From positions 1 to 40,497 of IMG/VR virus record IMGVR_UViG_3300042937_000590: a DNA stretch of 40,497 nt. One strand, written 5' to 3'. Below are positions 1-40,497 of this stretch, in pieces. A model generated the notes under the pieces. That model saw nothing but the letters and a program-made list of their open reading frames with translations. It was not told where the DNA came from and ran no database searches. The stretch's first letter is position 1. Every line of letters begins with the position of its first letter. This DNA comes from a virus. Both the position numbers and the translations under genes were made by a program.

Positions 1-1
1 C

Positions 2-319
2 TTCGACATTGTGGCGGGCGAGACGCGCACGCTCCCCATGTACGCCCGCGACCCTGACAACGCGGTACAGAGCCTGTCTGGCTTGACGGTACAGTGGCGC
101 GTTGGGCAGCCGCCGTGGGACCCGGCGCGCGAGACGCCGACGCTGACCAAGACCACCACCATAGTTTCAGCCGCTGCGGGATCGTTCACGGTCGCCCTGA
201 CCTATGACGACACGTACCAGCTTGAGGGCGATTTCCTGCACCAAGCCGTCACGTCATCCGGCCTCGTGGTGGTGACGGGCCGCCTTCACGTCCGACAGGG
301 CATACGGAGTGGAAGCTAA
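2..319 (+). CDS. Small virion-associated protein, allele A (5' truncated)
   Basis: Partial gene: the reading frame is open from base 2, and the first six codons seen in the second copy (39761-40096) are missing at the window edge. The visible 105 residues match that copy almost throughout. The fold looks beta-rich, with alternating hydrophobic and polar residues and Thr/Val-rich strands, and no catalytic motif is visible. Its place just before the gp4-like connector gene in both copies suggests a head-to-tail or virion structural role; this is an inference. Unlike copy B it does not overlap the next gene. The stop lies two bases before the tailspike ATG. Confidence 0.8.
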   Translation, partial: FDIVAGETRTLPMYARDPDNAVQSLSGLTVQWRVGQPPWDPARETPTLTKTTTIVSAAAGSFTVALTYDDTYQLEGDFLHQAVTSSGLVVVTGRLHVRQGIRSGS

Positions 320-320
320 A

Positions 321-2027
321 ATGACAATTACCGCTCCCGTTAACAGTGTCACTCCCGCGTTTATTGACGAGTTAAACGACAACTTCGCCGCACTTGACGC
401 CGCGCAGGTATTCAATCTTGCGGCTTTGAAGGCAACCGAATATGCGCCCGCCGTTGTAAGCGTTGGCTACAAGACGACGCCGGGTGATGGCTGGGGCGGG
501 ATGTTCGCCTACGATGCCTCGGACACCACGACGGCCGGTGATGACGCCTTGGTCGTGGTGGATGCGACGGGGCGGCGCTGGAAGCGGGTTTACAACGGAC
601 CCGTCAACGCGAAGTGGTTCGGCGCAAAGGGCGATGGGGTAACGAATGACGCATCCGCCATAAACGCCGCAATCCAATCCGCAGTGGCAAGCGGCAAAGA
701 CACCGTTATTCTCGATGCAGGCGCTGTGTACTATGTCGCGTCAACAATCGAGCTTTCCGGCGTGCATCTTGATGGCGGCAACCTCATACCGGGAAATCCA
801 ACTGAGGGGACGCGGATTTTGGGGGCGCCTGCTCTTACCCCCGTCGTTACGATTGGATCATTGCTTTCAAATCAAACCTCGTTTTTGCGTAACCTCACAG
901 TTACACGCTCGGGAACGTCGCCTGATTCCGCCTCCATAGGTATCAAGGTATTGGACGGATACAATATCAACTTTGAGAATGTTGAGTCCGATAATCACGG
1001 AGTATGTTGGTATTTCACCGGCCATCCGCCCGGCGGCCTGAGTATTCGTCTTGATAATTGTTACAGCGCCCGCGCGGTCGATGCGCACATTTGGAACGAC
1101 ACATTTCCGGAACTGTACTGGATGGGCGGCCGGATTGGGCAGAACGGCGCGGGCGATTATGCTGCCAATACCTATGTGCGTATGTCGGGGGGAGTTGGGG
1201 CAACTGCAGGCGGCCCGAACACCGTCAAATTCACAAATGTTCAATTTAATCAGGGGTCAAATGCGCCGAGCCATTTCTGGGAGTTTGTGGACCTTAATTC
1301 GCCATACGTTCCGGGCATAGACGCGACAGTATTCAATCTGACAGATTGCCATATTGAGGGAGTAAGTGGCTCAATATTCTATTCGGATGCGACATGGAAC
1401 ATAGTGGACCGGCTCACCATTAACGGCTGCGTGATCAATACCCCGACGGTGCCGATGTGGGCATTGAATGCCGCCACGCAGCCCGCTCGATGGTCTCTAT
1501 CGGGAAATAATTATTTCACGTCGACTTTTACACTCGCTCCAACCGACCCTTTTACGTCCGTCAGTATCGTAGGCGGATACCTGTCGGGAACTATGTCACT
1601 CACCGGGGTCAGTGGGTCTACTCTATCCATCGCCAACTTGGCGCACGGGGCGAATTTTACGCTTGCGGGCACTTGGTCGGGGTTCAACTCGTTTGGGGAA
1701 ACCTTTGCGGCGGGTGCGTTCATCAACAATGCTTCGGGCACAGTTCTTTACCAAGGCGCTCAGTATTCACAACGAATCCAGCCGCAATACTCTGCGACCC
1801 TAGATGGCGCTGGAAATGCTTTGATAGCGCACGGCCTGGGTGCTTCTGCTGTTGCGACAGCAGTGGTTGTATTTGGTTCCTTTAAAACCGGCGGCGGCGC
1901 TTGGAACCCACTCGTTACAAATTATATCGACGCCACAAACGTCAGTGTTTCAGGGGGAGCCGCTGGAATTGGCCGCCCTGCATGGGTGGAAATAATCGTC
2001 AATGCCGCAGCCCATACTGGTTGGTAG
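321..2027 (+). CDS. Tailspike, pectate-lyase-type beta-helix
   Basis: Protein of 568 residues. Start chosen at ATG 321, with GGAG about 12 bases upstream; an in-frame GTG at 309 is the alternative. Residues 1-85 are a short N-terminal region probably used for virion attachment. At about residue 98 the motif WFGAKGDGVTNDASAINAA marks the pectate-lyase-3 superfamily, typical of right-handed beta-helix tailspikes that bind or depolymerise host surface polysaccharide. The later part has many Asn/Gly-rich short strands, as expected for helix rungs. Base composition is visibly more AT-rich than the neighbours, and the gene is absent from allele B at the right end. Both points suggest recent gain as a host-range cassette. 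The catalytic residues cannot be assigned by eye. Confidence 0.8.
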   Translation: MTITAPVNSVTPAFIDELNDNFAALDAAQVFNLAALKATEYAPAVVSVGYKTTPGDGWGGMFAYDASDTTTAGDDALVVVDATGRRWKRVYNGPVNAKWFGAKGDGVTNDASAINAAIQSAVASGKDTVILDAGAVYYVASTIELSGVHLDGGNLIPGNPTEGTRILGAPALTPVVTIGSLLSNQTSFLRNLTVTRSGTSPDSASIGIKVLDGYNINFENVESDNHGVCWYFTGHPPGGLSIRLDNCYSARAVDAHIWNDTFPELYWMGGRIGQNGAGDYAANTYVRMSGGVGATAGGPNTVKFTNVQFNQGSNAPSHFWEFVDLNSPYVPGIDATVFNLTDCHIEGVSGSIFYSDATWNIVDRLTINGCVINTPTVPMWALNAATQPARWSLSGNNYFTSTFTLAPTDPFTSVSIVGGYLSGTMSLTGVSGSTLSIANLAHGANFTLAGTWSGFNSFGETFAAGAFINNASGTVLYQGAQYSQRIQPQYSATLDGAGNALIAHGLGASAVATAVVVFGSFKTGGGAWNPLVTNYIDATNVSVSGGAAGIGRPAWVEIIVNAAAHTGW

Positions 2028-2077
2028 TTTTATGAAGAAATCTTGTTCGGCTGGCTTGCCAAGATCGCGGGGCGTAA

Positions 2078-2533
2078 ATGTCTGACCTTCCTTATCTCTT
2101 TCAGTATGGCCCGGCTCCGACTGGCGAGTCTGGCGCAAAAACCGCGCGCACGATGGTCTTAGAGGCCATGCAGGATTTGGGAATCGTGGCCGACCAGGAG
2201 GCCATGAGCGCCGCCCAAGGCAATTACGGCTTTCGCAAGCTGAACGACATGCTGGCCGGTTTTGAGTCCGAAGGCATCCACTACGCGCACCGCAACCTGT
2301 CGTCTCTCGACAGCATTATCAATTTGCCAGACGGGCAGCTCCGCAACGTCGGCCTGATGTTGCAGCGCGAGCTTGCCGGCACCTACGGCGTATCCCTGAG
2401 CCCGGATGACCAGTTGGCAATCCAGCGCGCCATGACGGCCCTGCAAGCCTATTACTACGTGCCCATTACGTCGGCTCCCGAGCTTGCGCTGCGGCCTCGC
2501 CGGTTTGGTCGATTCAACTTTTCCGCCGGATGA
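2078..2533 (+). CDS. P22 gp4-like tail accessory factor, allele A
   Basis: Protein of 151 residues. From about residue 30 it matches the second copy (40093-40497) closely, while the first 30 residues differ completely. Pattern and position resemble the P22 gp4 tail accessory family (P22 gp4 is 166 aa), which binds below the portal and recruits gp10 during tail assembly: an N-terminal helical segment ending MQDLGIVADQEAM, then a helical body with LNDMLAGFESEGI. Its stop overlaps the gp10-like start (ATGATG at 2530). The ribosome-binding site is weak (GGGGCG), unlike the coupled start in allele B. Confidence 0.75.
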   Translation: MSDLPYLFQYGPAPTGESGAKTARTMVLEAMQDLGIVADQEAMSAAQGNYGFRKLNDMLAGFESEGIHYAHRNLSSLDSIINLPDGQLRNVGLMLQRELAGTYGVSLSPDDQLAIQRAMTALQAYYYVPITSAPELALRPRRFGRFNFSAG

Positions 2534-3954
2534 TGCGCGGCCCTCTCGCCCTTGGCTTTGCCCAGCAGCGCTCCCGCCCTGTCAACGCGGCTCGCGTCGT
2601 GAACCTGTACGCGGCGTCCACCGCAGAGGGAAGCCGGACCAAGGTCGTGCTGTACGGCACGCCCGGCCAGAAGGCATGGCGCACCATCGGCGGCGACACG
2701 ATCCGCGCGGGCCTAGAAGCTCAGAGCATAGCCTACATTCTCAGCGGCACGATCCTCTATCGCGTGGAATCGGACGGCACCACGACGGCCTGCAGCGGCG
2801 ATTTAATCCCGCCCACGGGCGAGGCGACGCTAATCAACAACGGCGGCCAAATTGGCTTGTTGGTGGTTCCTGACTTGTTCGTGATTGTGGGAACGACCGT
2901 CACCAAGGTCACGGCGGCGGGCTATCCCAGCGCGGGCCTGTCCAGCATCGCCTACATCGACGGCTATGCGGTCGGCACCGTCAACGACGACTCCGGGCAG
3001 TTCCAGATTTCCGGCTTGTTGGACTTCGCCTCGTGGGATGCGCTGGACCTTGCCAGTGCCGAGTCGAGCCCGGACGGCCTGCTCCGCGTGCTGGTCGATC
3101 ATCGCGAGGTGTGGCTGTTCGGCACGCAAACCGTCGAGGTGTGGGCCAATACCGGCGCGTCGCCTTTTCCCTTCGAGCGCGTGCCGGGCGCCTTGCTGGA
3201 GCGTGGATGCGCGGCCCGTCGCAGCCCCGCCAAGATGGACAACTCCGTATTCTGGCTGGGCGATGATCGGATCGTGTACCGCGCCGAAGGCTATCAGCCC
3301 GCGCGTATCTCGACACACGCCATCGAGGAAGTGCTTCGCGTCGGCACCGTGTCGGACGCCTACGGGATGACGTATTTCCAGGCTGGACATCACTTCTACG
3401 TCCTGACCCTGCCGAGCCTCAACCGGACCTTCGTTTTCGATCCTGCAGCCTCCGCAGCGGCTGGGGCGCCCATCTGGCACGAGAGGCAGAGCGGCACGTC
3501 TATCGAACCTGCCAAGTGGGACGTGCAGTGCATTTTCAGCGCCTTCGGCAAGACGCTGGTAGGCTTGCAGGCTGGCAAGGTCGCGGAACTAGACCTCGAT
3601 ACCTACACCGACTTGGGCGAGCCCATCCGGTCCGTGATTGTCGGCCTGCCATTCTATGCCGAGACGCTGCGGGCAATCATGGTGGACTTCGAGCTTGAGT
3701 GCGAGCTGGGCGTCGGCGCGATCTCTGGGCAGGGGGCCGACCCCGAGGTCATGATGCGCTACAGCGACGACGGCGGCTTCAGTTGGAGCCACGAACGGCG
3801 CGCGAGCCTTGGCCGGCAGGGTGTCCGCTATATTCGCGCCATGTGGGACCGGCTCGGCGCCTTCCGGCAGCGGACGGTTGAGATTTCCATATCAGACCCG
3901 GTCAAGCGTGCATTCTACGGGATGCGGACCAAGATCAAGCCGTTGCCACGATGA
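2530..3954 (+). CDS. P22 gp10-like packaged DNA stabilisation protein
   Basis: Protein of 474 residues, against 472 for P22 gp10. It is rich in beta strands, with a repeated pattern of hydrophobic strands and conserved W/F/G positions (VWLFGTQTVEVWANTG, VFWLGDDRIVYR) typical of the gp10 family, which forms the hexameric tail hub that plugs the portal after packaging. Order gp4-gp10 is as in P22. The start ATG overlaps the gp4-like stop, giving translational coupling. The end overlaps the next gene by ATGA. Family assignment is confident from length, order and pattern; individual contacts cannot be judged. Confidence 0.8.
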   Translation: MMRGPLALGFAQQRSRPVNAARVVNLYAASTAEGSRTKVVLYGTPGQKAWRTIGGDTIRAGLEAQSIAYILSGTILYRVESDGTTTACSGDLIPPTGEATLINNGGQIGLLVVPDLFVIVGTTVTKVTAAGYPSAGLSSIAYIDGYAVGTVNDDSGQFQISGLLDFASWDALDLASAESSPDGLLRVLVDHREVWLFGTQTVEVWANTGASPFPFERVPGALLERGCAARRSPAKMDNSVFWLGDDRIVYRAEGYQPARISTHAIEEVLRVGTVSDAYGMTYFQAGHHFYVLTLPSLNRTFVFDPAASAAAGAPIWHERQSGTSIEPAKWDVQCIFSAFGKTLVGLQAGKVAELDLDTYTDLGEPIRSVIVGLPFYAETLRAIMVDFELECELGVGAISGQGADPEVMMRYSDDGGFSWSHERRASLGRQGVRYIRAMWDRLGAFRQRTVEISISDPVKRAFYGMRTKIKPLPR

Positions 3955-4220
3955 CCGCGCCATTCAATTCCAAAACCCGCATCGTCAACCAGGATGGCAC
4001 GCCTAGCCAATGGCTGATTGCCTATCTGCAGTTGATCGGAACCGGCGTGGTGAAGCGCACGACTTACACTTACGCGGTAATCGCCACCATGACGCCGACG
4101 CTGGGCGACACGGTGGTTTGCACTGATTCGAGCGTGACGACCGTAGGCAACACGCTGGCGGGTGGCGGCGCGAACATCGTGCAGGCCATCGGCAACGGTA
4201 CTGACTGGAAGGTGATTTAG
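3951..4220 (+). CDS. Small tail-module protein
   Basis: Protein of 89 residues starting in an ATGA overlap with the gp10-like gene. It opens FNSKTRIVNQDGTPSQWLIAY, a short pattern I associate with small tail proteins of phages in this group; I do not recognise a named family. The second half is Thr/Val/Gly-rich and probably beta-structured. By position it could fill the role of the P22 gp26 needle, but it is much shorter and lacks the long coiled coil, so that is doubtful. The next gene starts directly after its TAG. Confidence 0.7.
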   Translation: MTAPFNSKTRIVNQDGTPSQWLIAYLQLIGTGVVKRTTYTYAVIATMTPTLGDTVVCTDSSVTTVGNTLAGGGANIVQAIGNGTDWKVI

Positions 4221-4664
4221 ATGATCCGCGACGCCGTACCAGACGACGCGCCCGAGTTGGTCGAGATGGGCCGCGCTTTCTTTGCCGAGGCAGGATGGGC
4301 CGACAAAGCCGAGTTCTGCCCTGTCAGCTTTGCGCTGACTTTGGAGCGGTTGGCCGAGGCCGGAATCCTGCTGGTTTTCGAGAAAGACGGGAAGCCGGTC
4401 GGCATGGCCGGGGCGCTTTACTCTCCCGCGTACTGGAATGAGAAAGTACTTATCGGGCAGGAGTTGTTCTGGTATTGTGAGCCACCGCACCGCAAAGGTG
4501 CGGGCGCCGAGTTGCTTAGGCACCTCGAATCCGCCGCCAAGGCGCGCAACGTACAATTCTTCGGCATGGTCGCGGAGCATGGGCTTCGCCACGAAGCACT
4601 CGCCCAAGTCTATAAGCGGGCGGGTTATTCGGTTGCCGAGCATACGTTCTGCAAGGCGCTATAA
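4221..4664 (+). CDS. GNAT-type N-acetyltransferase
   Basis: Protein of 147 residues with the GNAT layout: N-terminal IRDAVPDDAPELVEMG, a central beta segment, and an acetyl-CoA binding loop of the Q/RxxGxG/A type in HRKGAGAELLRHLE at about residues 91-104. The C-terminal YKRAGYSV region is also typical. GNAT enzymes transfer an acetyl group from acetyl-CoA to an amine; the substrate is unknown. It sits between tail and ejection genes with no gaps (start right after TAG, end right before the next ATG), so it is expressed with virion proteins. Similar small acetyltransferases occur at this place in other podoviruses. Confidence 0.8.
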   Translation: MIRDAVPDDAPELVEMGRAFFAEAGWADKAEFCPVSFALTLERLAEAGILLVFEKDGKPVGMAGALYSPAYWNEKVLIGQELFWYCEPPHRKGAGAELLRHLESAAKARNVQFFGMVAEHGLRHEALAQVYKRAGYSVAEHTFCKAL

Positions 4665-5327
4665 ATGGCGATTTTCTCCGCTTTATCGGGTGTTATTGCT
4701 CAGCAAGGCGCGCAGGCTGGCGGCAACATGGCTGCGAGCGCGGCCAACCGTGCCGCACAGATGCAGCAGGAAGAGGCGACGCGAGCCCGTGCGGCTCTGT
4801 CTCCCTGGGTTGCGGCGGGCGGCGGTGCCATCGGCAAGGTGACGAACTTGCTCGGCCTCGGCACTCTCAAGACCAACGGCGGAAACTATAACACGTATGG
4901 GTTGGACCCTGCAGGCGCGAAGGAAACGCAGCAGCAGGCGTTGGCCGACTTCGAGACTTCGCCCGGCTATCAGTTCCGCATGGATGAGGGCTCGAAGGCG
5001 CTGGACCGTTCGGCGGCCTCGCGTGGCCTTCTCCGCTCGGGTGCGCAACAGAAGGCCATTACCGCCTTCGGGCAGGGCATCGCCTCCGAGGAATACGGGA
5101 ACTACATGGACAACCTGCTCGCGGTTTCCGGACTTGGCGGGCAAGCGGCGTCCAGTGGTAACAACACGGCGGCGAACCTGACCGGCAACGCGGCGGACAA
5201 CATCTTCCGGGGTGGCGTGGCGCGCGGCTCCGCTTATTCGGCAGGCGCCAACGCGCTTGCAAGCGGTATCAGCAAGGGCGTCGAGAACGCGGCCGGCGTG
5301 ATCGGATACAAGGGGTGGTTTAAGTGA
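4665..5327 (+). CDS. gp7-like DNA ejection protein
   Basis: Protein of 220 residues (P22 gp7 is 229). It is rich in Ala, Gly, Gln and Asn, with an N-terminal helical segment (QQGAQAGGNMAASAANRAAQM) and a Gly/Ala-rich C-terminus predicted to be membrane-active. A central stretch with DFETSPGYQFRMDEGSKALDRSAASRG is typical of the gp7 or DNA-transfer-protein family. These proteins are packaged in the head and ejected into the envelope to carry DNA across. It is first of three co-oriented ejection genes, and its stop overlaps the next start (GTGA). Confidence 0.75.
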   Translation: MAIFSALSGVIAQQGAQAGGNMAASAANRAAQMQQEEATRARAALSPWVAAGGGAIGKVTNLLGLGTLKTNGGNYNTYGLDPAGAKETQQQALADFETSPGYQFRMDEGSKALDRSAASRGLLRSGAQQKAITAFGQGIASEEYGNYMDNLLAVSGLGGQAASSGNNTAANLTGNAADNIFRGGVARGSAYSAGANALASGISKGVENAAGVIGYKGWFK

Positions 5328-7303
5328 GCGGCGTCCTTTACCCGGACCTCGCCCGCTCGTTTGCGCTCGGCTCACAGCTTCGCGTTCAGGAAGAAGAACG
5401 CGGCATAGATAAGGAAGTAAACGAGCTAGTTCCGGCTGCGATGAAAGGCGACCAAGCCGCTATCGAGAACATCGCCAGAAAGCGCCCGAACGTCGCTATG
5501 GGCATTTCCGGGATGCTGGAGAAGATGGACGCGGGCCGCCGCGCCAAGGTCAAGGAAGCGTCGGAGTGGACGGCCAAGGCCGCTATGGGCGTGCTGAGCC
5601 TGCCGGAAGCCGAACGCCCGGCTGCGTATCAGGCTGCGTTGGCAGAGGGCCAACGTCTCGGCTACCAGATTGACATGCCGCCGCAGTACGACCGCGCGGT
5701 AGACGGTCGGCTGAGGCAGATACTCAACCAGACCCGCACGTTTGAGAACTATTGGAAGGACAAGCAGGAAGGCTTTGACCTCGTGCCTTCGGGCGGTGGT
5801 GGTGCGGCCCCGCCTTCGGCTGGTGGTGGTGGTGGCGTCAACCCGTACAACATCGGCAACGTTCGCCCGGTCGGCGGTGGCCCCAACAGCGGCTTTCAGC
5901 AGCCCGCCTCGCTAGACGACGGCATCCGCTTGGCGGTCAACAACGTCAAGGCGTACCCGGCCAAGTTCAACAACGGCCAGCCCATGACGCTGATGCAGAT
6001 CGGAGCGCGTTGGGCTCCCGTTGGTGACGGCGCAAACGATCCGGGGCAGTGGGCTCGCAACGTCGCCAGCATCGGCGGCCTTGATCCCAACCAGCCGCTC
6101 GACCTGAACGACCCCATGACGGCGGCCAAGTTCGCGCGTGGCGTTCACGGTGCCGAGCATGGCGCCAACAAGGTGCTTCCGCCCGAGCGATACGCGCAGG
6201 CGATCACGGGCGGCGCCGCGCCTCCCGGCATCGCCCAAGGCGACACCGCTCCCCCCGCCGATGCGTCCGGCACTCCCATTCCGACCTCTGACGGTGGCAC
6301 GGTCACACCCAGCACCTTGCGATTGCTTACGCCAAATCTCCCGCCCGGCGCGCATCTTGGCAGGGACAGGAAAACCGGCAAGTTGATCGTTCAGGAAGGC
6401 AACTTCAACGTCTACGACAGTAATAAAAACTGGATTGGAATGGTTCCCGTCCCGAAGGCGCAAGAGACGGAAACAGGCCCGTTTGGGAATTCAACGCAAG
6501 GGCGGGGCCTTAATATTCTTGTTGAAGAAGGCAGGCTAACGCGACAGCAGGCGGCGGAACTGGCGGCTGGCAAGACCGTCACCGACCCCGCAACCGGGCA
6601 GATCATCTTTATGACGCCTTCTGGCATTTTCGGGCAAAACCCTGGACAGGCGCCGCAGCCTCTTTCCAGCCCGCAAGGCGGCGCTCCGATGGCGCCCGCT
6701 GGCGGCCCGGCCGGCGTTCCCGCGCCTGCGGCTCCCGCCGTTACTGTCCCGGCGAATCCCGGTTCTATCCCGTTGACGGGCGTTAGGCCGACCGGCCAAC
6801 CGTCTGCAACCGAAATGGCGAAGCTGCGGTCGGCTCGCGTTGAAGCCGACAAGATCACGGCGGCGGCGAACGACTTTAAGACGGAATGGGCGAAGGCGAC
6901 TCCAGCGGAGCGCGCTCGCTCTCTGGCGGGCGCCAACACGCCGCTAAACGCCTCGTACAACAACTTCGCCTTGCTGGCGAAGGGCGACGCTTTGTTTCAG
7001 TTGGGCGTGCTGAATGGTCCCGATCTCGACATCATCCGCCGCACGATCCCGGACCCGTCGACGTGGAAGTCAATCATGACTTCGGAGAACGACGTTACGT
7101 CGTCCGTCGACAAGGTGCTGAACATTCTGAATAACGGCGTGTCATCGACCGAGCGGCAGCTTGGCATCACTCCGCCGCAGGGAGCGCCGCCCCCGGCCGC
7201 CACCACGCCGCCTGCCGCTCCGCAAGCGGGCGACATGGTCGATGGCTATGTGTTCCGGGGAGGCAACCCGGCCGACCCGAATAGCTGGAGCAAGGTCCAG
7301 TGA
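5324..7303 (+). CDS. gp20-like ejection protein with possible wall-degrading domain
   Basis: Protein of 659 residues starting at GTG 5324, overlapped with the preceding TGA. Residues 1-155 are helical and charged. A Gly/Pro linker (about 160-172) leads to a domain at about 173-290 (NPYNIGNVRP, TLMQIGARWAP, NDPGQWARNV). This resembles a domain found in virion proteins and suspected of peptidoglycan cleavage; the activity is inference. A Pro/Ala-rich linker (about 440-490) precedes a helical C-terminus. P22 gp20 is 471 residues, so this one is longer because of the inserted domain. It is likely ejected with its neighbours to breach the cell wall. Confidence 0.7.
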   Translation: MSGVLYPDLARSFALGSQLRVQEEERGIDKEVNELVPAAMKGDQAAIENIARKRPNVAMGISGMLEKMDAGRRAKVKEASEWTAKAAMGVLSLPEAERPAAYQAALAEGQRLGYQIDMPPQYDRAVDGRLRQILNQTRTFENYWKDKQEGFDLVPSGGGGAAPPSAGGGGGVNPYNIGNVRPVGGGPNSGFQQPASLDDGIRLAVNNVKAYPAKFNNGQPMTLMQIGARWAPVGDGANDPGQWARNVASIGGLDPNQPLDLNDPMTAAKFARGVHGAEHGANKVLPPERYAQAITGGAAPPGIAQGDTAPPADASGTPIPTSDGGTVTPSTLRLLTPNLPPGAHLGRDRKTGKLIVQEGNFNVYDSNKNWIGMVPVPKAQETETGPFGNSTQGRGLNILVEEGRLTRQQAAELAAGKTVTDPATGQIIFMTPSGIFGQNPGQAPQPLSSPQGGAPMAPAGGPAGVPAPAAPAVTVPANPGSIPLTGVRPTGQPSATEMAKLRSARVEADKITAAANDFKTEWAKATPAERARSLAGANTPLNASYNNFALLAKGDALFQLGVLNGPDLDIIRRTIPDPSTWKSIMTSENDVTSSVDKVLNILNNGVSSTERQLGITPPQGAPPPAATTPPAAPQAGDMVDGYVFRGGNPADPNSWSKVQ

Positions 7304-9777
7304 GCGGCCCGTGGGAGCGCTACGCCACGCCTTCGCCCGCTGCCGCCGGCCCGTGGACGAAGTACGCCGCTTCAGCTCCAACCGAGGGCGGCGTGCAGGA
7401 TTGGGAGCCGGAAGGCTACAGCGGCGGGCAGATGGCCGCGCGCAAGGTTGGATTGGCCGCTCAGGGCACAACTGACGCCCTTATCAGCAATGCTGCGGCC
7501 CCCTTGGATATTTCCGGGTGGTTGTCTCGTGCCACCGGGCTCGTTGGCCAAAATACGCCGCCCATCAGCGCGGCATTCAAGCAGGCAGCCGATGATGTGG
7601 CGTCTGTGCCGCTGCGTATCCGAGATGCCGTTTCACAGGGCTCCTTCGATCCTCTGTTCGCGACGCGCGATGCCTACGGCACGAGAATCGATCCCGTTAC
7701 GACCGGCGAGCGCACGGCCTACGGGGCCGGGCAGGGCGCGGGTAACGCGCTGGCAATGGTTGCGCCCGCTGGCGTGGTCGGCCGTGTGGCTGCTCCTGGC
7801 TCTGTTACTCAAGGTGTTGCCAGCACGCTTGCAACGCAGCCTGTAATGCAGACCGTTGCGGGTGGCGTCGCCGGCGCTGTCACGGGCGCCACTGACAACC
7901 CGTGGTATGGCTTGGGCGCTGGTGTTTTGGCAGGCGTTGGCCTTCCGTATGCGTCCAGTGTCACTAAGTCCCTTTTCCAGCCGTTCACATCTGGAGGCAG
8001 GGACGCGATTGTCGGGCGGACGCTGAACACACTGGCTGATGACCCGGTGCGGGCCTCGGAAAACATGCTCCGCTACAGGTCTCCGGTGCCAAACCGGGGG
8101 CCGAATGGGGAGCCGGGCTTCCAGCTATCAGCGGCGAAAGCTTCCGGCGACGACTCATTGATGGCGACTGAAAACGCATTGATGCGAGCCGGCACTGGCT
8201 TTGGACAGCAAGCAAACGCCAATAATGCGGCGCTGACGCGGGCGCTTGATAGCCTCAACGCAGGCGGCGATCCTCGCGCATTCGTCGCCGCTCTTGGCAG
8301 GCTGGACGCGAACGCCGCGATGCGGGCGCAAGCCGCGCTTGATGCGCTTCCGCCCAGCGTCGATCCGACAACGGCCGGGCGCGCGATCCAGAACGCTCTC
8401 CGGGGCCGCTTCGACACGCTGGTAACGGCCCGCAGCCAAGCGGCAGACCCGCTCTATGAAGCGGCGAGGGCCTCGACGCAGCCCGTACCGGCGCTGCCTT
8501 TGGCGTCTCTGGTCGATGATCTGGCGCGCGCCAACAAGGGCGAGCCACGCGCGGCAATGGAGCGGGTGAGGGCGCTGCTATTCGATGCAGACGGCCAACT
8601 CGACCGGACCGCAAGCGGCATGATGGCCTCGCGCTCAGCGATTGGCGACATGCTCGACAATCCCCAGATCGGCAACAATACGCGAAGGCTGTTGCTTGAA
8701 GTCCAGCGCCAGTTGGACACTGCACTCGCGGCAGTGCCGGAAGAGCAGCTAGCGCGCGGGGTATTTGCCGAGAGAAGCGTGCCGCTTAATCCGTTCGACG
8801 CCACGCGAGGCAACAAGACCGTTGCGGGTGCGATCGCGCAAGACCGCCGAAGCGGCACCTTCCTGCAGACCCCGGAGCAGGTGACGGGCAATTTCCTCCG
8901 GCCCGGAGACGCCGGAACCGCAGCGATCCGCGAACTACGCGGTACAGATACCCGCGTTCCGTTGAATGCGCTTGAAGGCGTGGTTGCAAGCCGGGTTCGG
9001 GAAGGCGCTTCCGTTGAGAACATTCGCCCGGCGGTCAACGCGCTTTCCCCGCGCCTAGGGCAGCAGGTCGATGACGTTCGCGCAACAGGCACGCTTGCGC
9101 AGGGCTTCCGCTCGTCGCCCGCCGGCCGCTTCCTGACAGGCGACCTTGATGCCGCCGTGAAGTCCACGCTCGGCGCTCCGGACAGCGCCAACCGCTTGCA
9201 GTCTTTGGCTATGTCTGTCGGAGACGATCCGCAGGCGGTGGCTGGTCTGCGTCGCGCCATTATCGACAACTTCCGCGCCAGCGCCCGGTCGAAGGTTGCA
9301 GAGGACACGATGGGCAATCCCAACCTCGTGGCGGCTGGTTCCGCCCGGTGGCTGGAATCCAATCGCGAGGCGCTTAGAGGCATCCTGACACCGGACCAGT
9401 TGGGCGGCTTGGAAGCCATCACTCGCGCTCTCAAGGATCAGGCGCGGACCGCGACCAAGGTCGCCGGGTCTGATACCGCGCGCAACCTCGCGACACAGAA
9501 CATTGTCGATAGTCTACTCATTAAGGGCGCGGGAGATTCGGCAATTATGGCGCCGCTCCGCAAGACGCTCAATCTTGTCTACAGCGGCAGCAACGAAAAG
9601 ATCGCAGACCGGCTTGCAGAGGTTATGCTTGACCCGCAGGTGGCGGCGGCTTTGATGCAGCGCCCGACCGTGCAGAACATCACGCGCGCCACCACGGCGC
9701 TGGACCGGGCTGCACTAGCTACCGCAGTCGGCTCCAACGTCGAATCCCGCCCCACAAATCCGCTGCAAGCACGATGA
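7300..9777 (+). CDS. gp16-like large ejection protein
   Basis: Protein of 825 residues starting at GTG 7300 in a GTGA overlap. The N-terminus has two PW-Y-type repeats (GPWERYATP, GPWTKYAAS), followed by a hydrophobic Ala/Gly-rich stretch at about residues 145-215 that could insert in a membrane, then a long helical region with many Arg/Ala/Leu. Position as the third and largest ejection gene matches P22 gp16 (609 aa), which helps DNA cross the inner membrane. Sequence similarity to gp16 itself is not obvious to me, so the call rests on order and composition. Confidence 0.7.
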   Translation: MSGPWERYATPSPAAAGPWTKYAASAPTEGGVQDWEPEGYSGGQMAARKVGLAAQGTTDALISNAAAPLDISGWLSRATGLVGQNTPPISAAFKQAADDVASVPLRIRDAVSQGSFDPLFATRDAYGTRIDPVTTGERTAYGAGQGAGNALAMVAPAGVVGRVAAPGSVTQGVASTLATQPVMQTVAGGVAGAVTGATDNPWYGLGAGVLAGVGLPYASSVTKSLFQPFTSGGRDAIVGRTLNTLADDPVRASENMLRYRSPVPNRGPNGEPGFQLSAAKASGDDSLMATENALMRAGTGFGQQANANNAALTRALDSLNAGGDPRAFVAALGRLDANAAMRAQAALDALPPSVDPTTAGRAIQNALRGRFDTLVTARSQAADPLYEAARASTQPVPALPLASLVDDLARANKGEPRAAMERVRALLFDADGQLDRTASGMMASRSAIGDMLDNPQIGNNTRRLLLEVQRQLDTALAAVPEEQLARGVFAERSVPLNPFDATRGNKTVAGAIAQDRRSGTFLQTPEQVTGNFLRPGDAGTAAIRELRGTDTRVPLNALEGVVASRVREGASVENIRPAVNALSPRLGQQVDDVRATGTLAQGFRSSPAGRFLTGDLDAAVKSTLGAPDSANRLQSLAMSVGDDPQAVAGLRRAIIDNFRASARSKVAEDTMGNPNLVAAGSARWLESNREALRGILTPDQLGGLEAITRALKDQARTATKVAGSDTARNLATQNIVDSLLIKGAGDSAIMAPLRKTLNLVYSGSNEKIADRLAEVMLDPQVAAALMQRPTVQNITRATTALDRAALATAVGSNVESRPTNPLQAR

Positions 9778-9940
9778 CGCGCGTCCACACCCACGCGGCC
9801 CCGACGCCGATGACTAGCACGCAGAGCAGCCACGATTGCCCGGTCGGCAATGGGTCTGTCGCGGCTTGGTATCGATCGAAGGCAAAGGCCGCGCCGACCG
9901 ACACGGCGAGCTGTGAAAGCTCCATCCAACCAATTCGCAT
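9719..9940 (-). CDS. Possible antisense two-TM membrane protein
   Basis: Minus-strand reading frame of 73 residues filling the unusually large 180-base gap between the ejection and tail-fibre genes. It has two hydrophobic segments (about 8-22 and 38-58) separated by a short polar loop and ends in a basic tail (GGIRRWSRLR). No good Shine-Dalgarno is visible before ATG 9940 or the internal ATG 9925. If real, it would be an independently transcribed moron such as a superinfection-exclusion membrane protein; that role is speculation. It overlaps the 3' end of the gp16-like gene on the other strand. Confidence 0.4.
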   Translation of the reverse strand: MRIGWMELSQLAVSVGAAFAFDRYQAATDPLPTGQSWLLCVLVIGVGAAWVWTRVIVLAADLWGGIRRWSRLR

Positions 9941-9956
9941 GGCGGGAGCCTAGCAG

Positions 9957-11117
9957 ATGTCCGCACTCTTCTCACCCCCGCGCTATAGCCCCATGAGCGG
10001 CAACGGCACGTCGTATCCTGCGGCGAAGCTCTACTTCTACGAGACGGGCACCACGACGCCGAAGGACACCTACAACGACGCGGACCTCGACCCGGCGCAC
10101 GTCAACGCCAACCCCGTTGTCGCGGATGCCAACGGCCTTTTTGGCGTGATTTACCTTGGGACCGGCGACTACAAGGTGATTCTGAAGGACGCCAGCGATA
10201 ACGTGCTATGGACGGTGGACCCGCAGAGCGGCCTTGGAGCGGCGGACACGCTGACTACGCGCGGCGATCTGCTCACGCGCGACGCCTCTGGTTACTCGCG
10301 TCTAGCCATCGGCACGACGGGCTACTATCTCGCGAGCAACGGCACGGACCCCTACTGGGCATCGCCCATTATTCCGCGCCTTGCCATCCAGGGCCTGACC
10401 TACGCGAACAACGGCACCGACGCGACCAACGACATAGACATTGCGGTCGGCGGCGCTATGGACGGCACCAGCGCCCGAATGATGGTGCTGGGCTCCGCGC
10501 TGACCAAGCGGCTTGATGCCAATTGGGCAGTCGGCACAAATCAGGGCGGGCTTGATACCGGATCAGCCTCAGACACAGATTACTTCATCTGGCTTATCAA
10601 CCGCTCTGATACCGACGTGACGGACGTGCTGTATTCCACGTCTGCCACGGCTCCGACCATGCCGGCGAACTACAATTACAAGCGGCTGATTGGCTGGTTC
10701 AAGCGGGTATCCGGCGCGATTGTCGCGTTCAAGACCTACGAGACAGAAGGCGGCGGCCTTAACCTCATGTGGACCGCGCCGACGCTGGACATTAACGACA
10801 CGCTCAGTACGTCGCGCCGAACCGATGCCGTCAAGGTGCCGCTCGCCTTCTCGACGCTGGCAACGATCCGTGTGTCGCTGGTGGACGCCGCAGACAATAC
10901 CCTCGCGCTGGTGTGTTGCCCCGATGAGACGGACGCGGCGCCGTCCGCAACAGCAGCACCGCTTGCCAACCTGAACAGCCATTCCGGCGCAGCTTCGACC
11001 GAGCAAAAGGAGTTGCGCATCCGCACATCGGCCACCGGCACGATTGCCGCGCGGGCAACCGCTGCGCTCGATACCTACGCCGTCTCCACGGTCGGCTTTG
11101 AGTGGTCGCGGCGATGA
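9957..11117 (+). CDS. Tail fibre protein
   Basis: Protein of 386 residues. The N-terminal 100 residues (FSPPRYSPMSGNGTSYPAAKLYFYETGT, shown here in parts: YPAAKLYFYETGTTTPKDTY, then GLFGVIYLGTGDYKVILKDA) are the virion-binding domain found at the start of many phage tail fibres. The rest is beta-rich with Ala/Thr repeats. It probably anchors the receptor-binding apparatus to the tail and starts the adhesin block 9957-15646. Its stop overlaps the next gene (ATGA at 11114). Confidence 0.75.
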   Translation: MSALFSPPRYSPMSGNGTSYPAAKLYFYETGTTTPKDTYNDADLDPAHVNANPVVADANGLFGVIYLGTGDYKVILKDASDNVLWTVDPQSGLGAADTLTTRGDLLTRDASGYSRLAIGTTGYYLASNGTDPYWASPIIPRLAIQGLTYANNGTDATNDIDIAVGGAMDGTSARMMVLGSALTKRLDANWAVGTNQGGLDTGSASDTDYFIWLINRSDTDVTDVLYSTSATAPTMPANYNYKRLIGWFKRVSGAIVAFKTYETEGGGLNLMWTAPTLDINDTLSTSRRTDAVKVPLAFSTLATIRVSLVDAADNTLALVCCPDETDAAPSATAAPLANLNSHSGAASTEQKELRIRTSATGTIAARATAALDTYAVSTVGFEWSRR

Positions 11118-11461
11118 GTGAGGCAACCTTCATCAACTTTACGGCCTTTCAGCCCTTCGAAGGCGGGAACGGCAGGCGCTTGACCGTTGGGGCGACCACC
11201 GCCCGCGTCCAGATCCCCGGAACGCAGGCGGTCACGTCTCCCGACCGGCTCCGCATTCTGATTTCAAACAACAACAGCTTCCCGGTTTCGATCCTCATGG
11301 GGCAGGACAGCGTGGAGGCGACGACGGACTGCCAGGAGGTTCTGCCGGGAACTCAGACGCTTTTCACCCCGCCAGTCGTCGCCCCGGATGGCGTATGGGT
11401 CGCGGCGATCAGCGACGCCGGGGATGGGTACATCCAGATCACCGCCGGATACGGAACATAG
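11114..11461 (+). CDS. Small tail or adhesin-module protein
   Basis: Protein of 115 residues. Start set at ATG 11114 because it overlaps the tail-fibre stop; an in-frame GTG at 11102 is less likely. Beta-rich composition with motifs RILISNNNSFPVSILMGQDSVEA and VWVAAISDAGDGYIQITAGYGT, suggesting a small all-beta structural domain. I do not recognise a named family. Located between the fibre and the first copy of the adhesin cassette. Confidence 0.7.
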   Translation: MSEATFINFTAFQPFEGGNGRRLTVGATTARVQIPGTQAVTSPDRLRILISNNNSFPVSILMGQDSVEATTDCQEVLPGTQTLFTPPVVAPDGVWVAAISDAGDGYIQITAGYGT

Positions 11462-11470
11462 GAGAAGATC

Positions 11471-11776
11471 ATGGCGAACGAGTTTGATAGCGAGCGTTTG
11501 ACATATGCCGCGATTGCGGCGGCACAGACGGCGGCAGCGGCTTTCTCTGGCGTGGGCGCGTACCTCTCGCACGTCGTGTTGCAGCCTGCCGCGCTCACGG
11601 CAGCGACGACAATCATTCTTGACGGAACGACGGTGATTTACACCTATACCGGCGGCACGCTGTCAGACCTTCGGCCTATCGTTGTGCCGCTTGGCTCTCG
11701 CAGCCGGAACGGCTCTTGGAACATCACCACAGGCGCCAACATGGCGGCACTGGCGTTCGGCAAGGCCACCATTTGA
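11471..11776 (+). CDS. Adhesin cassette, first gene, copy 1
   Basis: Protein of 101 residues with a strong Shine-Dalgarno (AGGAG). Its last 75 residues are clearly related to the C-terminal half of the 149-residue protein at 38254-38703: both share YLSHVVLQP / YLSHIILQP, TVIYTYTGGTLSDLRPI / TVIYTFTTGTLADLRPI and a final TTGA-MAA segment. Such short beta domains occur in phage virion proteins, but the function is unknown. The stop overlaps the next gene by TGATG, exactly as in copy 2. Confidence 0.75.
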   Translation: MANEFDSERLTYAAIAAAQTAAAAFSGVGAYLSHVVLQPAALTAATTIILDGTTVIYTYTGGTLSDLRPIVVPLGSRSRNGSWNITTGANMAALAFGKATI

Positions 11777-12543
11777 TGCTGTTCCGGGAATTCCTGATGG
11801 TTGCGGCGAATGCACGTCTAGGGCGGACGCTGCCCGGTGGCTGGACGCCTGCCTCAATCTCCAGCGCCACGCCGCGCGGCTTTATCGACTTTGAAGACAA
11901 TACCAAGATCACCACGGCCACAGGCGTTTCGCAGATTGTGGATTCAATAAGCGCGTCTGCCTTCGTGCAAGCGACGGGCACGGCGCAGCCTTTGCTTATC
12001 ACCAGCGCCACCACGGGCCGACAGGTCGCGAGCTTCGACGGCACGGACGACGAGTTGACGTTTGCCGGCATCCCGACCAACTGGCCGGTTGGCACGACGG
12101 CCGGCGGCATCTTCCTGGTGTGCAATCAGCTCGACACGGCGGCGAATAACCGGGTGGGGATCAGCTACGGTGGCAGTTCAACCAACTCGAACCGCAGCAT
12201 CTTTAAAATCTCTTCGCCGTCAGCCGTCCGCTGCCATGCGGGGACGGGCGTGTCGTCTGCCCCAGCAACCACGACGGCGGTCGTTTTTAACGGTCGTCAT
12301 TGTGTTTTGTTCGATGTTGGCACAGCAGAGATTCGCGCTAACATAGACGGTGTTTATGGCAGTACATCCGTCACTGCGCCGAATACATCATCCACGCGAG
12401 CGCGCATCGGTGCCAGTACGGGCACGTTGGCGGCTTCGTTCTTCCAAGGCGAAATCAGCGCGGTCGTTGTGTGGCAAGGCACTCTGAGCGCGCTGGAGAC
12501 GCAATATCTCTACCTTTGGGGCGGCAGCCGGTTGGGGTTATAA
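11776..12543 (+). CDS. Adhesin cassette, second gene, copy 1 (LamG-like lectin fold)
   Basis: Protein of 255 residues. Start set at ATG 11776, in a TGATG overlap with the previous stop. A concanavalin/LamG-like layout is suggested by SFDGTDDELTFAG, GGIFLVCNQLD, then repeated strands ending FFQGEISAVVVWQGTLSALE. This fold binds glycans in many adhesins. The protein parallels 38703-39539 in layout and in its genetic partner. It is likely part of the adsorption apparatus; the ligand is unknown. Confidence 0.7.
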   Translation: MLFREFLMVAANARLGRTLPGGWTPASISSATPRGFIDFEDNTKITTATGVSQIVDSISASAFVQATGTAQPLLITSATTGRQVASFDGTDDELTFAGIPTNWPVGTTAGGIFLVCNQLDTAANNRVGISYGGSSTNSNRSIFKISSPSAVRCHAGTGVSSAPATTTAVVFNGRHCVLFDVGTAEIRANIDGVYGSTSVTAPNTSSTRARIGASTGTLAASFFQGEISAVVVWQGTLSALETQYLYLWGGSRLGL

Positions 12544-12544
12544 A

Positions 12545-15500
12545 GTGATTCGCGCATTTACTCGTTCCACTGGCGTCGCGCCGGATGCTCCTAATTCGAT
12601 TCTAAACGGCATGACGGCTGCGAACATCCGCGAGATTTACGACAACTTCGACACGATCTATTGGCCTGAGCAGATCACGCTTGTCGGCAATCAGAACATC
12701 GACCTCAGTGAGCTTCGGAGCAAGACAAGCATCTCGCTAGTCTCAGGCAAGCCGCTTATCATCAGCGACGCATCTCGGATACTGACCGTAGGCGGCCAAC
12801 CGTCCGGACAGCGAGGCGACTTTGACAGCCTCACACACGCGCCGCGTTTTGAAGGAGAGTTTTGGCTATACGGCAGCGGAACCGCCACACACGGAACGCG
12901 CGGCGTCTTTGTGAACGCCGAAACGTATCGCCTGCACTTTGATTGGCTGTGGACGCAGAACCTTGGCGGCGGCATCCAGGGCACGCTTGGCGAAATCAAG
13001 ACTCTGACAATCGACCACTTCTTTGCGTGGCAGTTCATCGCCTTTGGCGCGGAGTTTTATTCCTCGGACCACATCAAAGAAATTAGCGAAATCTTCATAA
13101 ACGGGAACGTCGAAGGCAACACCAAAGAGGCGCTGTCTGACGGCATCTTCTTCTCGTATGGGCCGAGCGTCGGCTCGGCTGGCAAGATTGGATCAGTCGT
13201 CCGCAATGGCGTGTGCTACCGGCAGAAGTCGGTGCAGAAGATTTGGGCGGTGCGGGACATCGTATCGCGGTCTTGGGCCGTGGAGAGCGGCTCCGGCGTG
13301 GCAACGTACGTCACAGAGGATTATCACAGCGTCGTTCCAGGTGATCCAGTGTTGACCGGCGGATGCGACAACACCGCCTACAATAATCTGACGACCACGC
13401 CGGACATCGCCCTGGCCGGCACAGACGAGAAGACCATCAAAATCGCAATGGCGGTGGACCCCGGTGCGTACACCGTGCCGGGCTACTTCACCTACAGCAA
13501 CCGAACCGTGCCGGCCGGGTTCAATGACTACGAACGTCCGCGTAAGATCACGTTCTATGATGTTTCCGGCCGTGCCCAGTTGGGCAAAGTGTTCCACAAC
13601 GAGGCGGGTGGGTATGTCGGCTGGTATCGCTGCGTTGCGGACGATGCTGGTATATCCGACCCATACAACCTGTACCCGGTCGCGACGTGGTTGGCCGGCG
13701 TGCTAACCGTATCGACGTACACCGACAGCACCATGACGACGCCGGCAGATCACGAGTTGACGGCGGGGGAACTGTTCAACCTGCGCGCCTTCAACCCCGC
13801 ATCATACAACGTGTCCCTTGAGTGCGACACGGTGGTTGACAGCAACACCTTCACCGCGCTCATGACCGACGATCCCGGTGCGATTGTCAAGGTTGGCGCC
13901 TACTACAAGCCGACGGCGTCGTCCCAAGAATCGGACGGCTGGTACATCGGCGAGCGCGCCGGTGCGTACGCTATTGTCGACTGTGAGGGCCACGAGAATT
14001 ACCGCTCTAACGTCTACGACAACCGCATGACTAACGAGCGGTCGCGCATCACCGGCAACCGTTTCTACAACGCATCATACGGCGCACCCAACCCGCCAAA
14101 CCCCGTGGCCGACATCTACATGCGCCCCGGTCGAGCGAACATCACCATCACCGACAACATTCTGGGCACCGGAGATACCTGGCGCTTCGGCTCCAAGAGC
14201 TTCGTGTTCTCGGGTGTTCCGCTCGACGGCGAGTATGTGTCCATCAGGGTCAATGCGGCGACGGAGCCGACATACTTCATATTCACGACGGAAAGCGACC
14301 CTGACGCCTCGCAGCCTTCAGTGTTGATTGCTACAGGCGGCACCGCCAACGAGAACAGGGCGGCCACCATCGCCAATCTCTTGGCCGCGATTCATGGCCG
14401 GGACGACGACAATTGCCGCGCCATCCAGTGCAGCGCGCGCGATGCAAACTTGAGCACGGTTGGTCCTATCGACCGGCTTCTCATGGTCCGCACATTTGCC
14501 GGCAAAATCAGCGATGAGTTCATACTTGAGGACGGGTCTACCGTCATATCGCTGTCTCCGGGCGGCACGTCTTTGTCGGGCGGCACTGGCGTAGGAACTG
14601 CGTCCTACGGGATTATGAATGTCCGCGATGGCGACCGTGGAAACGTGGTGGAAAACAATTCCATTTCCAGCCATGCGCTAGGCGATAACAATATGGACCC
14701 GGTGGCGACTGCGCCAACGATCCGGTCGAACCTGCTGGACAATGGAGACTTCTCGCTTGACCAGCAGAACGAGGGCGCATCGGTCACGATCACCAGCCCG
14801 TCCACAAATGTTCGCGTTGTTGACCGTTGGGTGGCGACGCGCGGCACGGCAAACGTCACGGCCCAGCGTGTTGCTGGAACGGTGCAGACCTATGGCCTAA
14901 AGGTCACGGGCGCGGCGACGAATAGTTCCGTGGTGATCCGCCAGAGCATCGAGGCCAAGCGCGCGGCGGCGTTTGAAGGCAAGGTCTACACCTTCTCCGC
15001 TTGGGTCTACGGAACCGGCGTGACGCGCTGTTTCCTGCGGGTGGCAACGGCGGACGTTGCGGACAATTTCAGCGCCGTGACCAGCATCAAGAACAAGCAA
15101 TTTATCATTGGGACGACGGCGACCCGCCTGTCCTTTAGCTTCGTCGGAACCGCCGCCATTGTGAACGGGCTAGAACTTTCGTTCCGGTTTACGTCAGGAA
15201 TTGTCGCGGCGCAGAACGTGACCATTGAAGGCGCGAAGCTGGAAGAAAGCGGCGTCGTTACAGACTTCGTGCCGGACCTGCCGGAAGATACGTTGTTTTC
15301 CTGCCAGCAATACTACCGAAAGACCTTCCCGGCGGGCACGGCTCCCGCGCAAAACGCGGGCGTCACGGGCGCAGTCAATGGCGTGCAGTCTCTTGCGGGC
15401 GCGGTGGCTCAGCAGTTCCAGGTGGTCGATTTCAGCCCACCCATGCGCGCCGCGCCGACCGTGGTTCTGTTCAACCCCAGCGCCACGAACGCGCAGATCC

Positions 15501-15646
15501 GCAATACGGCGGCGGCTGCGGACTGGTCCGCGTCGGCGTCTGTGGCCGACGTTAACGGCATCACGATCAGCGGCACTGGGCCGGGCGGGGGAGCAGCCGG
15601 AGAGGCGTCCGCCGTCCACTACGCCGCCGACGCGGACTTCTTATGA
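12545..15646 (+). CDS. Large tail fibre or tailspike protein
   Basis: Protein of 1033 residues from a GTG start directly after the previous TAA; an in-frame ATG at codon 23 is the alternative. Residues 1-60 contain an IREIYDNFDTIYWPE segment. The middle has Asn/Gly-rich rungs with ENYRSNVYDNRMTNERSRITGNRFYN, suggesting beta-helix repeats. A C-terminal jelly-roll, carbohydrate-binding-like module starts near residue 720 (NLLDNGDFSLDQQNEG) and ends around 870. The tail carries FSCQQYYRKTF, a signature seen near the C-terminus of many tail fibres. It is the main candidate receptor-binding protein in the part of the genome shared by both alleles. Confidence 0.75.
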   Translation: MIRAFTRSTGVAPDAPNSILNGMTAANIREIYDNFDTIYWPEQITLVGNQNIDLSELRSKTSISLVSGKPLIISDASRILTVGGQPSGQRGDFDSLTHAPRFEGEFWLYGSGTATHGTRGVFVNAETYRLHFDWLWTQNLGGGIQGTLGEIKTLTIDHFFAWQFIAFGAEFYSSDHIKEISEIFINGNVEGNTKEALSDGIFFSYGPSVGSAGKIGSVVRNGVCYRQKSVQKIWAVRDIVSRSWAVESGSGVATYVTEDYHSVVPGDPVLTGGCDNTAYNNLTTTPDIALAGTDEKTIKIAMAVDPGAYTVPGYFTYSNRTVPAGFNDYERPRKITFYDVSGRAQLGKVFHNEAGGYVGWYRCVADDAGISDPYNLYPVATWLAGVLTVSTYTDSTMTTPADHELTAGELFNLRAFNPASYNVSLECDTVVDSNTFTALMTDDPGAIVKVGAYYKPTASSQESDGWYIGERAGAYAIVDCEGHENYRSNVYDNRMTNERSRITGNRFYNASYGAPNPPNPVADIYMRPGRANITITDNILGTGDTWRFGSKSFVFSGVPLDGEYVSIRVNAATEPTYFIFTTESDPDASQPSVLIATGGTANENRAATIANLLAAIHGRDDDNCRAIQCSARDANLSTVGPIDRLLMVRTFAGKISDEFILEDGSTVISLSPGGTSLSGGTGVGTASYGIMNVRDGDRGNVVENNSISSHALGDNNMDPVATAPTIRSNLLDNGDFSLDQQNEGASVTITSPSTNVRVVDRWVATRGTANVTAQRVAGTVQTYGLKVTGAATNSSVVIRQSIEAKRAAAFEGKVYTFSAWVYGTGVTRCFLRVATADVADNFSAVTSIKNKQFIIGTTATRLSFSFVGTAAIVNGLELSFRFTSGIVAAQNVTIEGAKLEESGVVTDFVPDLPEDTLFSCQQYYRKTFPAGTAPAQNAGVTGAVNGVQSLAGAVAQQFQVVDFSPPMRAAPTVVLFNPSATNAQIRNTAAAADWSASASVADVNGITISGTGPGGGAAGEASAVHYAADADFL

Positions 15647-18903: not shown

Positions 18904-19122
18904 TTATTGGGGAGCGCGCAACGCATCCACGGTCTCAATTGCGATCAACCCACAGGCATTGAGCCGCAGTTTCCCGGACATGATGTAGTTCCGCACGGTC
19001 TTGGGGTGGACGTGAAGCATCTGCGCTGCCTGCTTCTGTGTGACTTGCGTAGGGCGCGGATGCGACTCGGCGTAGAGCCGCACCGCCTGCACGGCAACAC
19101 GCAAGGTCTGGTCGTCACTCAT
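18904..19122 (-). CDS. Excisionase-like helix-turn-helix protein
   Basis: Protein of 72 residues, ATG 19122 with AAGGAG upstream. Residues about 30-65 (QAAQMLHVHPKTVRNYIMSGKLRLNACGLIAIETVDAL) form the MerR/excisionase-type winged helix-turn-helix: QAAQMLHVHPKTVRNYI, then GKLRLNACG as the wing. Size, domain and position just upstream of int fit an excisionase that directs integrase toward excision. The N-terminal 31 residues are duplicated in the next upstream gene (25 of 31 identical). It could instead be a small transcriptional regulator. Confidence 0.7.
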   Translation of the reverse strand: MSDDQTLRVAVQAVRLYAESHPRPTQVTQKQAAQMLHVHPKTVRNYIMSGKLRLNACGLIAIETVDALRAPQ

Positions 19123-19588: not shown

Positions 19589-19980
19589 CTCTCCGTCTCC
19601 TTCGCTGCGAGCACGGCGTCTACGTCTCGGCGGCCTTGCGCGCTGAGATACCCTCGCGCCACTTCCAGCGCCTCCCGCCTCACGTCCTCCCCTTTCGTCG
19701 CGTTTACGCTATTGGCCCAATCGGCCCACGCCATGAGCGCCGCCGAAAGGGCTCGCGCCTCGCGCACGTCGCTCAAACTGAACTCCAGTTCGTACAGGTG
19801 CCGATTTTCCCTAGACCCTTGCCTCATCACCACGACCATTGATCCATCGGCAAATCCGGGATGCGGCCCGACTTCAATCATCGTCTCGTTCTCGGTGTAG
19901 GCAAGATCAACACGCGCACCCGCGACTGTTCTATCGGGGTCGCGGAAAAGCGCATCTATGATGCGGCCGATGGATGTCAT
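19585..19980 (-). CDS. Hypothetical early protein
   Basis: Protein of 131 residues, ATG 19980 with AAGGAGA upstream and an ATGA overlap with the preceding 59-residue gene. Beta-rich first half (ARVDLAYTENETMIEVG, SMVVVMRQGS) and a helical second half (DVREARALSAALMAWADWA). No family recognised. It belongs to the tightly coupled leftward early operon. Confidence 0.65.
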   Translation of the reverse strand: MTSIGRIIDALFRDPDRTVAGARVDLAYTENETMIEVGPHPGFADGSMVVVMRQGSRENRHLYELEFSLSDVREARALSAALMAWADWANSVNATKGEDVRREALEVARGYLSAQGRRDVDAVLAAKETER

Positions 19981-39757: not shown

Positions 39758-39760
39758 GGC

Positions 39761-40096
39761 ATGCCTAACGTCCAGAACTTCGACATTGTGGCGGGCGAGA
39801 CGCGCACGCTCCCCATGTACGCCCGCGACCCTGACAACGCGGTACAGAGCCTGTCTGGCTTGACGGTACAGTGGCGCGTTGGTCAACCGCCGTGGGATCC
39901 GGCGCGCGAGACGCCGACGCTGACCAAGACCACCACCATCGTTTCAGCCGCAGCGGGCTCGTTCTCCGTCGCCCTGACCTATGACGACACATACCAGCTA
40001 GAGGGCGACTTCCTGCACCAGGCGGTCACGTCATCCGGCCTCGTGGTGGTGACGGGCCGCCTTCACGTCCGACAGGGCATCAGGAGCGGATCATGA
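39761..40096 (+). CDS. Small virion-associated protein, allele B (complete)
   Basis: Protein of 111 residues, full version of the gene truncated at the left window edge. Start ATG 39761, three bases after the previous stop. The two copies differ at few residues despite many third-position changes in the DNA, so both are under purifying selection. It overlaps the gp4-like gene directly (ATGA at 40093), whereas in allele A the tailspike lies between. Confidence 0.82.
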   Translation: MPNVQNFDIVAGETRTLPMYARDPDNAVQSLSGLTVQWRVGQPPWDPARETPTLTKTTTIVSAAAGSFSVALTYDDTYQLEGDFLHQAVTSSGLVVVTGRLHVRQGIRSGS

Positions 40097-40497
40097 GCAG
40101 CCGAACCGCACGCGACGTGATTACCTACGCCATGCAGGACTTGGGCATCGTGGCCGACCAGGAGGCCATGACCGACACGCAGGGCAATTACGGCCTGCGG
40201 AAACTGAACGACCTTCTGGCGGGCTTTGAGAGCGAGGGCATCCGCTACGCTCACACCGATCTCGCCTCGCTCGATACCGTCGTGAACGTGCCGGACGGGC
40301 AGTTGCGCAATGTCGGCCTGATGCTGCAGCGCGAGCTTGCCGGGACCTACGGCGTATCCCTGAGCCCGGATGACCAGTTGGCGATCCAGCGCGCCATGAC
40401 GGCCCTGCAAGCCTATTACTACGTGCCCATTACGTCGGCTCCCGAGCTTGCGCTGCGGCCTCGCCGGTTTGGTCGATTCAACTTTTCCGCCGGATGA
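39779..40497. repeat. Allele B of the connector block, diverged direct repeat of 1-2533
   Basis: This copy carries the same two genes as the left edge but joined directly by an ATGA overlap, with no tailspike between them. Its last base is the A of the gp4-like stop codon; in the left copy the next gene (gp10-like, 2530) starts inside that same ATGATG. A natural continuation of 40497 is therefore base 2534, which would close a circle of about 38 kb. Confidence 0.8.
40093..40497 (+). CDS. P22 gp4-like tail accessory factor, allele B
   Basis: Protein of 134 residues, ending exactly at the window edge. From MQDLGIVADQEAM on it matches allele A (2078-2533); the N-terminus (SSRTARDVITYA) is shorter and more like typical gp4 proteins (P22 gp4 begins with a short helix). 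The final 114 bases are identical to allele A, so the next gene in a circular genome should be the gp10-like gene at 2530. Confidence 0.78.
   Translation: MSSRTARDVITYAMQDLGIVADQEAMTDTQGNYGLRKLNDLLAGFESEGIRYAHTDLASLDTVVNVPDGQLRNVGLMLQRELAGTYGVSLSPDDQLAIQRAMTALQAYYYVPITSAPELALRPRRFGRFNFSAG

Follow-up and report, generated by a model that had tools for sequence, protein, structure and literature searches.

The window, a whole IMG/VR virus record of 40,497 bases, carries the same two genes of a putative connector cluster at both of its ends. A short gene is followed by a gene for a gp4-like head-tail adaptor, and in the left copy (A), unlike the right copy (B), a tailspike gene separates the two. 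The body shared by both arrangements opens with a gp10-like gene.

1..319, + strand: short gene, A copy, truncated at its 5' end; 1-105 the same as in B, 16 A/B differences in 106-313
321..2027, + strand: pectate-lyase-like tailspike, 568 aa, in the A form only; matches to PF12708 and to PHROG tail fibre/spike entries
2078..2533, + strand: gp4-like head-tail adaptor, A copy, 151 aa; phrog_637, E 5e-4
2530..3954, + strand: gp10-like packaged-DNA stabilisation/head closure protein Hc3; phrog_578, E 1e-103, and PF11134
38203..39757, + strand: cargo before the short gene; adhesin-like ORFs 38203-38703 and 38703-39539, small ORF 39536-39757
39761..40096, + strand: short gene, B copy, complete, 111 aa; phrog_1084, unknown function; overlaps the gp4-like start (ATGA)
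40093..40497, + strand: gp4-like adaptor, B copy, 134 aa, preceded by no tailspike

A BLASTN comparison of the window with itself aligned 1-313 with 39778-40090 at 94.9% identity (E 4e-140) and 2165-2533 with 40129-40497 at 88.3% identity (E 1e-133), both without gaps and both far above chance level. This bears out the first-pass annotation, which had described the same two genes at both ends with about 95% identity in the first, identical outer 105 and 114 bases (1-105 and the final 114 in our comparison) and a tailspike confined to the left copy; in the right copy the short gene directly overlaps the gp4-like gene. The right copy does end at 40497, as it had proposed, but begins at 39778 and not 39779. 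The A copy of the short gene has no start codon because the record begins inside the gene. The A copy of the gp4-like gene encodes a 17-residue N-terminal extension and has a divergent front half, and its last 114 bp are the same as in B. A weak profile match (phrog_637), together with the position of the gene, weakly suggests a gp4-type adaptor. The terminus of copy B at 40497 corresponds to 2533, the stop codon of the gp4-like gene, which overlaps the gp10-like start (2530/2533). Comparison of the termini of the whole record found no exact overlap that joins them.

The tailspike scored 34 bits against PF12708 in a profile search (cut-off 27) and had many PHROG tail fibre/spike matches. Its GC content is 54.6%, compared with 62.2% for the window, and its GC3 is 0.58, compared with 0.82-0.84 in the gp10, capsid and portal genes. 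The top match among solved structures, tail fibre protein 5w5p, covers a short N-terminal stretch only, and a single-sequence AlphaFold model, with many short strands, was poor (pLDDT 42). By its family the protein may add or change receptor recognition and so set host range. Other receptor-binding candidates, at 9957-11117 and 12545-15646, are kept in the A and B forms alike. Of the earlier proposal of a polymorphic host-range gene in a connector module, presence or absence of the tailspike at this locus thus stands, whereas the host-range part is inferred and is shared with candidates found in both forms.

Elsewhere the window has a P22-like gene set (terminase, portal, scaffold, coat, gp4, gp10 and ejection genes). 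The assembly and tail module is in the conserved order, with strong matches to phrog_283, phrog_156, phrog_578/PF11134 and phrog_598 and a weak one for the gp4-like gene. The coat protein is 37% identical to a P22-type coat protein, and an integrase (PF00589) is encoded. The window derives from a P22-like, probably temperate podovirus. No DNA-level match to the connector genes was found among named phages, and searches of bacterial and archaeal genomes with a gp10 alignment and the coat protein recovered no prophage or host relative. An acetyltransferase gene (phrog_1249) lies at 4221-4664 between the gp10-like and ejection genes, and repeats of ~100 bp at 19036-19135 and 19502-19602, 77% identical, lie over adjacent small minus-strand ORFs.

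Relatives were drawn from IMG/VR by searches with the coat, short, gp4-like and tailspike proteins, some 35 of them by the coat protein. The continuation of copy B into the gp10-like gene at 2534, predicted by the first-pass annotation, is present in two contigs, L042 and L060. L042 matches window 39421-39777 without a mismatch in 357 bases, runs on through B, and then differs from 2534-7184 at 3 of 4,651 positions. L060 has the same continuation, to 2651; L060 and L004, which are one contig, follow the window at ~100% from 24765 on, past the greater part of B, and continue in the gp10-like gene. These natural B haplotypes depart from the window at 2553, 2571 and 2592, and at no further position to 7184. 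The join from the gp4-like gene of the tailspike form to the body is present in L049 and L050, both of which begin within the tailspike (at 1653 and 1911); L049/G005 corresponds to window 1653-21715 at 99.99-100% and L050 to 1911-12193 at 100%. Different contigs thus place a nearly identical body beside a variable gene, the mark of a gene presence-absence island. A search for the 5' part of the tailspike, the A-specific sequence of the short gene and the junction between them found the tailspike 5' half and this junction in no contig besides the window. The A-type stretch 98-124 occurs also in L042, L041 and L013, without the tailspike there.

Circularity is indicated by relative G003 (3300044647_001317, ~95% identity, 38,983 bp), in which the gp10-like gene is split over the contig ends with an exact overlap of 127 bp, so that the contig closes as a circle of ~38.86 kb. 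In another relative, an overlap of 126 bp lies near the termini, at a different place in the genome. The circular map of G003 is consistent with a circularly permuted, terminally redundant genome that arises from headful packaging. For the window, circles of 39,777 bp (1-39777, A form) and 37,964 bp (2534-40497, B form) are predicted. The earlier suggestion of a circular genome of about 38 kb with an optional tailspike is supported by G003 and by both joins in other contigs.

A site-by-site comparison places A and B at one position. After its identity with 39421-39777, L042 carries the A base at all eight differing sites in 106-190, then the B base at 8 of 8 sites in 214-310 and at 43 of 43 sites of the gp4-like gene in 2176-2419. 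At 2425-2592 it has variants in common with L060 that are in neither copy of the window, and it is identical to the window afterwards. Since A-type sequence directly follows unique upstream sequence in L042, A and B share the same position. That they are recombining haplotypes of a single locus is well supported by these comparisons, with the proviso that L042, on which this is based, is itself an assembly and a possible chimera. The proposal of two alleles therefore holds in that A and B are alternatives at one site (L042, L060, L049 and L050), but the haplotypes number at least three and are recombinant. The polymorphic block extends to ~2592, within the gp10-like gene, and divergence is limited to ~106-2592. 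In contrast to the B haplotypes of L042 and L060, copy B of the window is A-type from 40389 onward; to explain this and the identical 105- and 114-bp ends, one more haplotype or an artefact of assembly is needed. A single k-mer overlap was rejected as the source of the identical ends, as 105 and 114 bases are not one length.

We consider it highly likely, with a probability of roughly 90%, that the record consists of A, the shared body (2534-39777) and B, where a single connector locus of a circular genome occurs in a mixed population as the alternative haplotypes A and B. At the level of assembled sequence, both alleles are found in independent contigs, together with a circular relative, a single locus and mosaic haplotypes. 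The record would then be a single walk round a circularly permuted genome, assembled out of a mixed population. The A form would be a circle of ~39.8 kb in which the tailspike separates the short gene from the gp4-like adaptor, and the B form a circle of ~38.0 kb that lacks the tailspike. A donor lineage outside the sampled set may have given a cassette of the 3' part of the short gene, the tailspike and the gp4 front half, which could have entered by homologous recombination via the conserved flanking genes, and the haplotypes would still be recombining. The assembler presumably reached the resulting bubble from both sides and halted, leaving both alleles at the ends.

A true partial duplication would instead place B and then A in tandem (body-B-A-body), with two pairs of short and gp4-like genes and the tailspike between. 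One record does hold both copies, and the join of 39777 to the tailspike form is in no contig, so that the left junction of this form is seen indirectly only. However, all sampled relatives, the circular G003 included, are single-copy for the connector, B is joined directly to the body in L042 and L060, and A alleles lie right behind unique upstream sequence in L042. The start of the record inside the short gene is, moreover, what a graph break predicts, and none of the contigs recovered contains a B-to-A junction, with both copies in one molecule. The earlier judgement that a tandem duplication is less likely agrees with the single connector copy in relatives, the B-to-body joins and the allele order of L042, and we regard a duplication as very unlikely.

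The two copies might also stem from separate phage strains or species, with and without the tailspike, that were falsely joined, without any polymorphism within a population. This would fit the 5-12% difference between A and B in the shared genes and the fact that the A gp4 front half is far removed from B as well as from every near relative. It is at odds with the mixture of A and B alleles in L042 and with divergence only within ~106-2592. The body at 2593-7184 is identical to the window in L042, a B contig, and the A contigs L049 and L050 match at 100%; identical bodies beside both alleles largely refute a false join, which we consider very improbable.

Within the favoured reading of alternative haplotypes, it is the A block (~106-2592) that stands out, and its low-GC tailspike and divergent gp4 front half make it look foreign. 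Of the 24 relatives that have both the short and the gp4-like gene, 23 have a gap of -1 or +2 between them, and the remaining one has a gap of 175 bp. As the gp4 protein tree was mostly unresolved, segment identities were used instead: in the gp4 front half, near relatives are 80-85% identical to A compared with 91-100% to B. The simplest account would be a cassette imported through conserved flanks. The 17-residue extension of the A gp4-like protein occurs only in tailspike contigs. It is conceivable, though doubtful, that the tailspike and the extended, divergent gp4 front half form a matched cassette in which the extension docks an extra tailspike onto a complete tail machine, giving virions with or without a second receptor-binding system.

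As an accessory gene, the tailspike occupies one of several insertion points; the connector cluster has at least three and is a cargo hot spot. Among relatives, 0-1.7 kb is inserted ahead of the short gene, and the window cargo at 38203-39757 is missing from its nearest relatives, for example L062. Among relatives the gp4-gp10 gap is empty, 89 bp long or filled with gene cargo, which in L066 and L059 encodes proline-rich small proteins.

Several contigs have further features in the gp4-gp10 gap. L055 encodes an HNH_3 endonuclease (10402-10881; PF13392, 61.8 bits). Cargo proteins of L041 (2444-3622), L039 (1215-2123) and L054 (8883-10385) share an N-terminal domain of ~104 residues, present in four contigs in all, and have different middles; those of L041 and L039 have a common C-terminal tail, and that of L041 has an ART-PolyVal domain (PF18760, 33.1 bits). 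The proteins of L041, L039 and L054 possibly represent an ejected-cargo scaffold with exchanged middle parts. The 89-bp insertion, found in six contigs (L062 at ~10734-10824; L061, L045, L010, L063 and L064), contains the inverted repeat GCAGACTTTT ... AAAAGTCTGC. In the window itself, ORFs 38203-38703 and 11471-11776 are paralogous (54% over 91 residues), and each is followed by an adhesin-like ORF, 38703-39539 and 11716-12543 respectively, the latter with a weak Laminin_G_3 match under the cut-off. These pairs suggest that a receptor-binding-type module was copied into the connector cluster.

The odd ends of this record thus point to a mixed population and not to a duplication. Linear virus records may hold two alleles at their ends, which inflates their length and hides their circularity. 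The locus is also a further case of putative host-recognition cargo that entered a P22-like connector gene cluster, and the exchange appears to have included adaptor sequence as well as the tailspike.

In metaviromic islands, host-recognition genes vary among nearly identical co-occurring phages and short-read assembly fails there (Mizuno et al. 2014, PMC3909814). The same kind of variation, with assembly breakage at the boundaries, was reported for niche-defining genomic islands of environmental phages (Warwick-Dugdale et al. 2019, PMC6487183). The variable genes in such islands encode tail fibre, lectin-like and carbohydrate-binding proteins (PMC3909814, PMC6487183). In the window, a candidate host-recognition gene varies on a nearly identical body. 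Unlike in those reports, which are marine, its tailspike lies inside a P22-like connector cluster and both alleles stand at the ends of one record. In P22 and epsilon34 (PMC2629481, PMC3741392), the tail consists of gp4, gp10, tailspike and needle, and the parts that vary include tailspikes and moron genes. The coat, gp4-like, gp10-like and ejection genes of the window are ordered as in the P22 late operon, with low sequence identity to P22-type proteins (coat 37%). The tailspike gene of P22 and epsilon34, however, is distant from genes 4 and 10 and beside a moron, whereas that of the window is optional and lies between the short and gp4-like genes. Syntenic scaffold/coat/adaptor/gp10/ejection clusters are present in phage DSL-LC05 (OR003940.1) and in Rhodoferax phage P26218 (NC_029061.1), whose gp10 proteins are 38-39% identical to that of the window. 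As a loose parallel, DSL-LC05 also has a tailspike in its head gene cluster, but located before the scaffold gene; in P26218 no tailspike is annotated within the stretch examined. The case of the window is an ordinary metaviromic island of a P22-like podovirus, with variation of a familiar kind.
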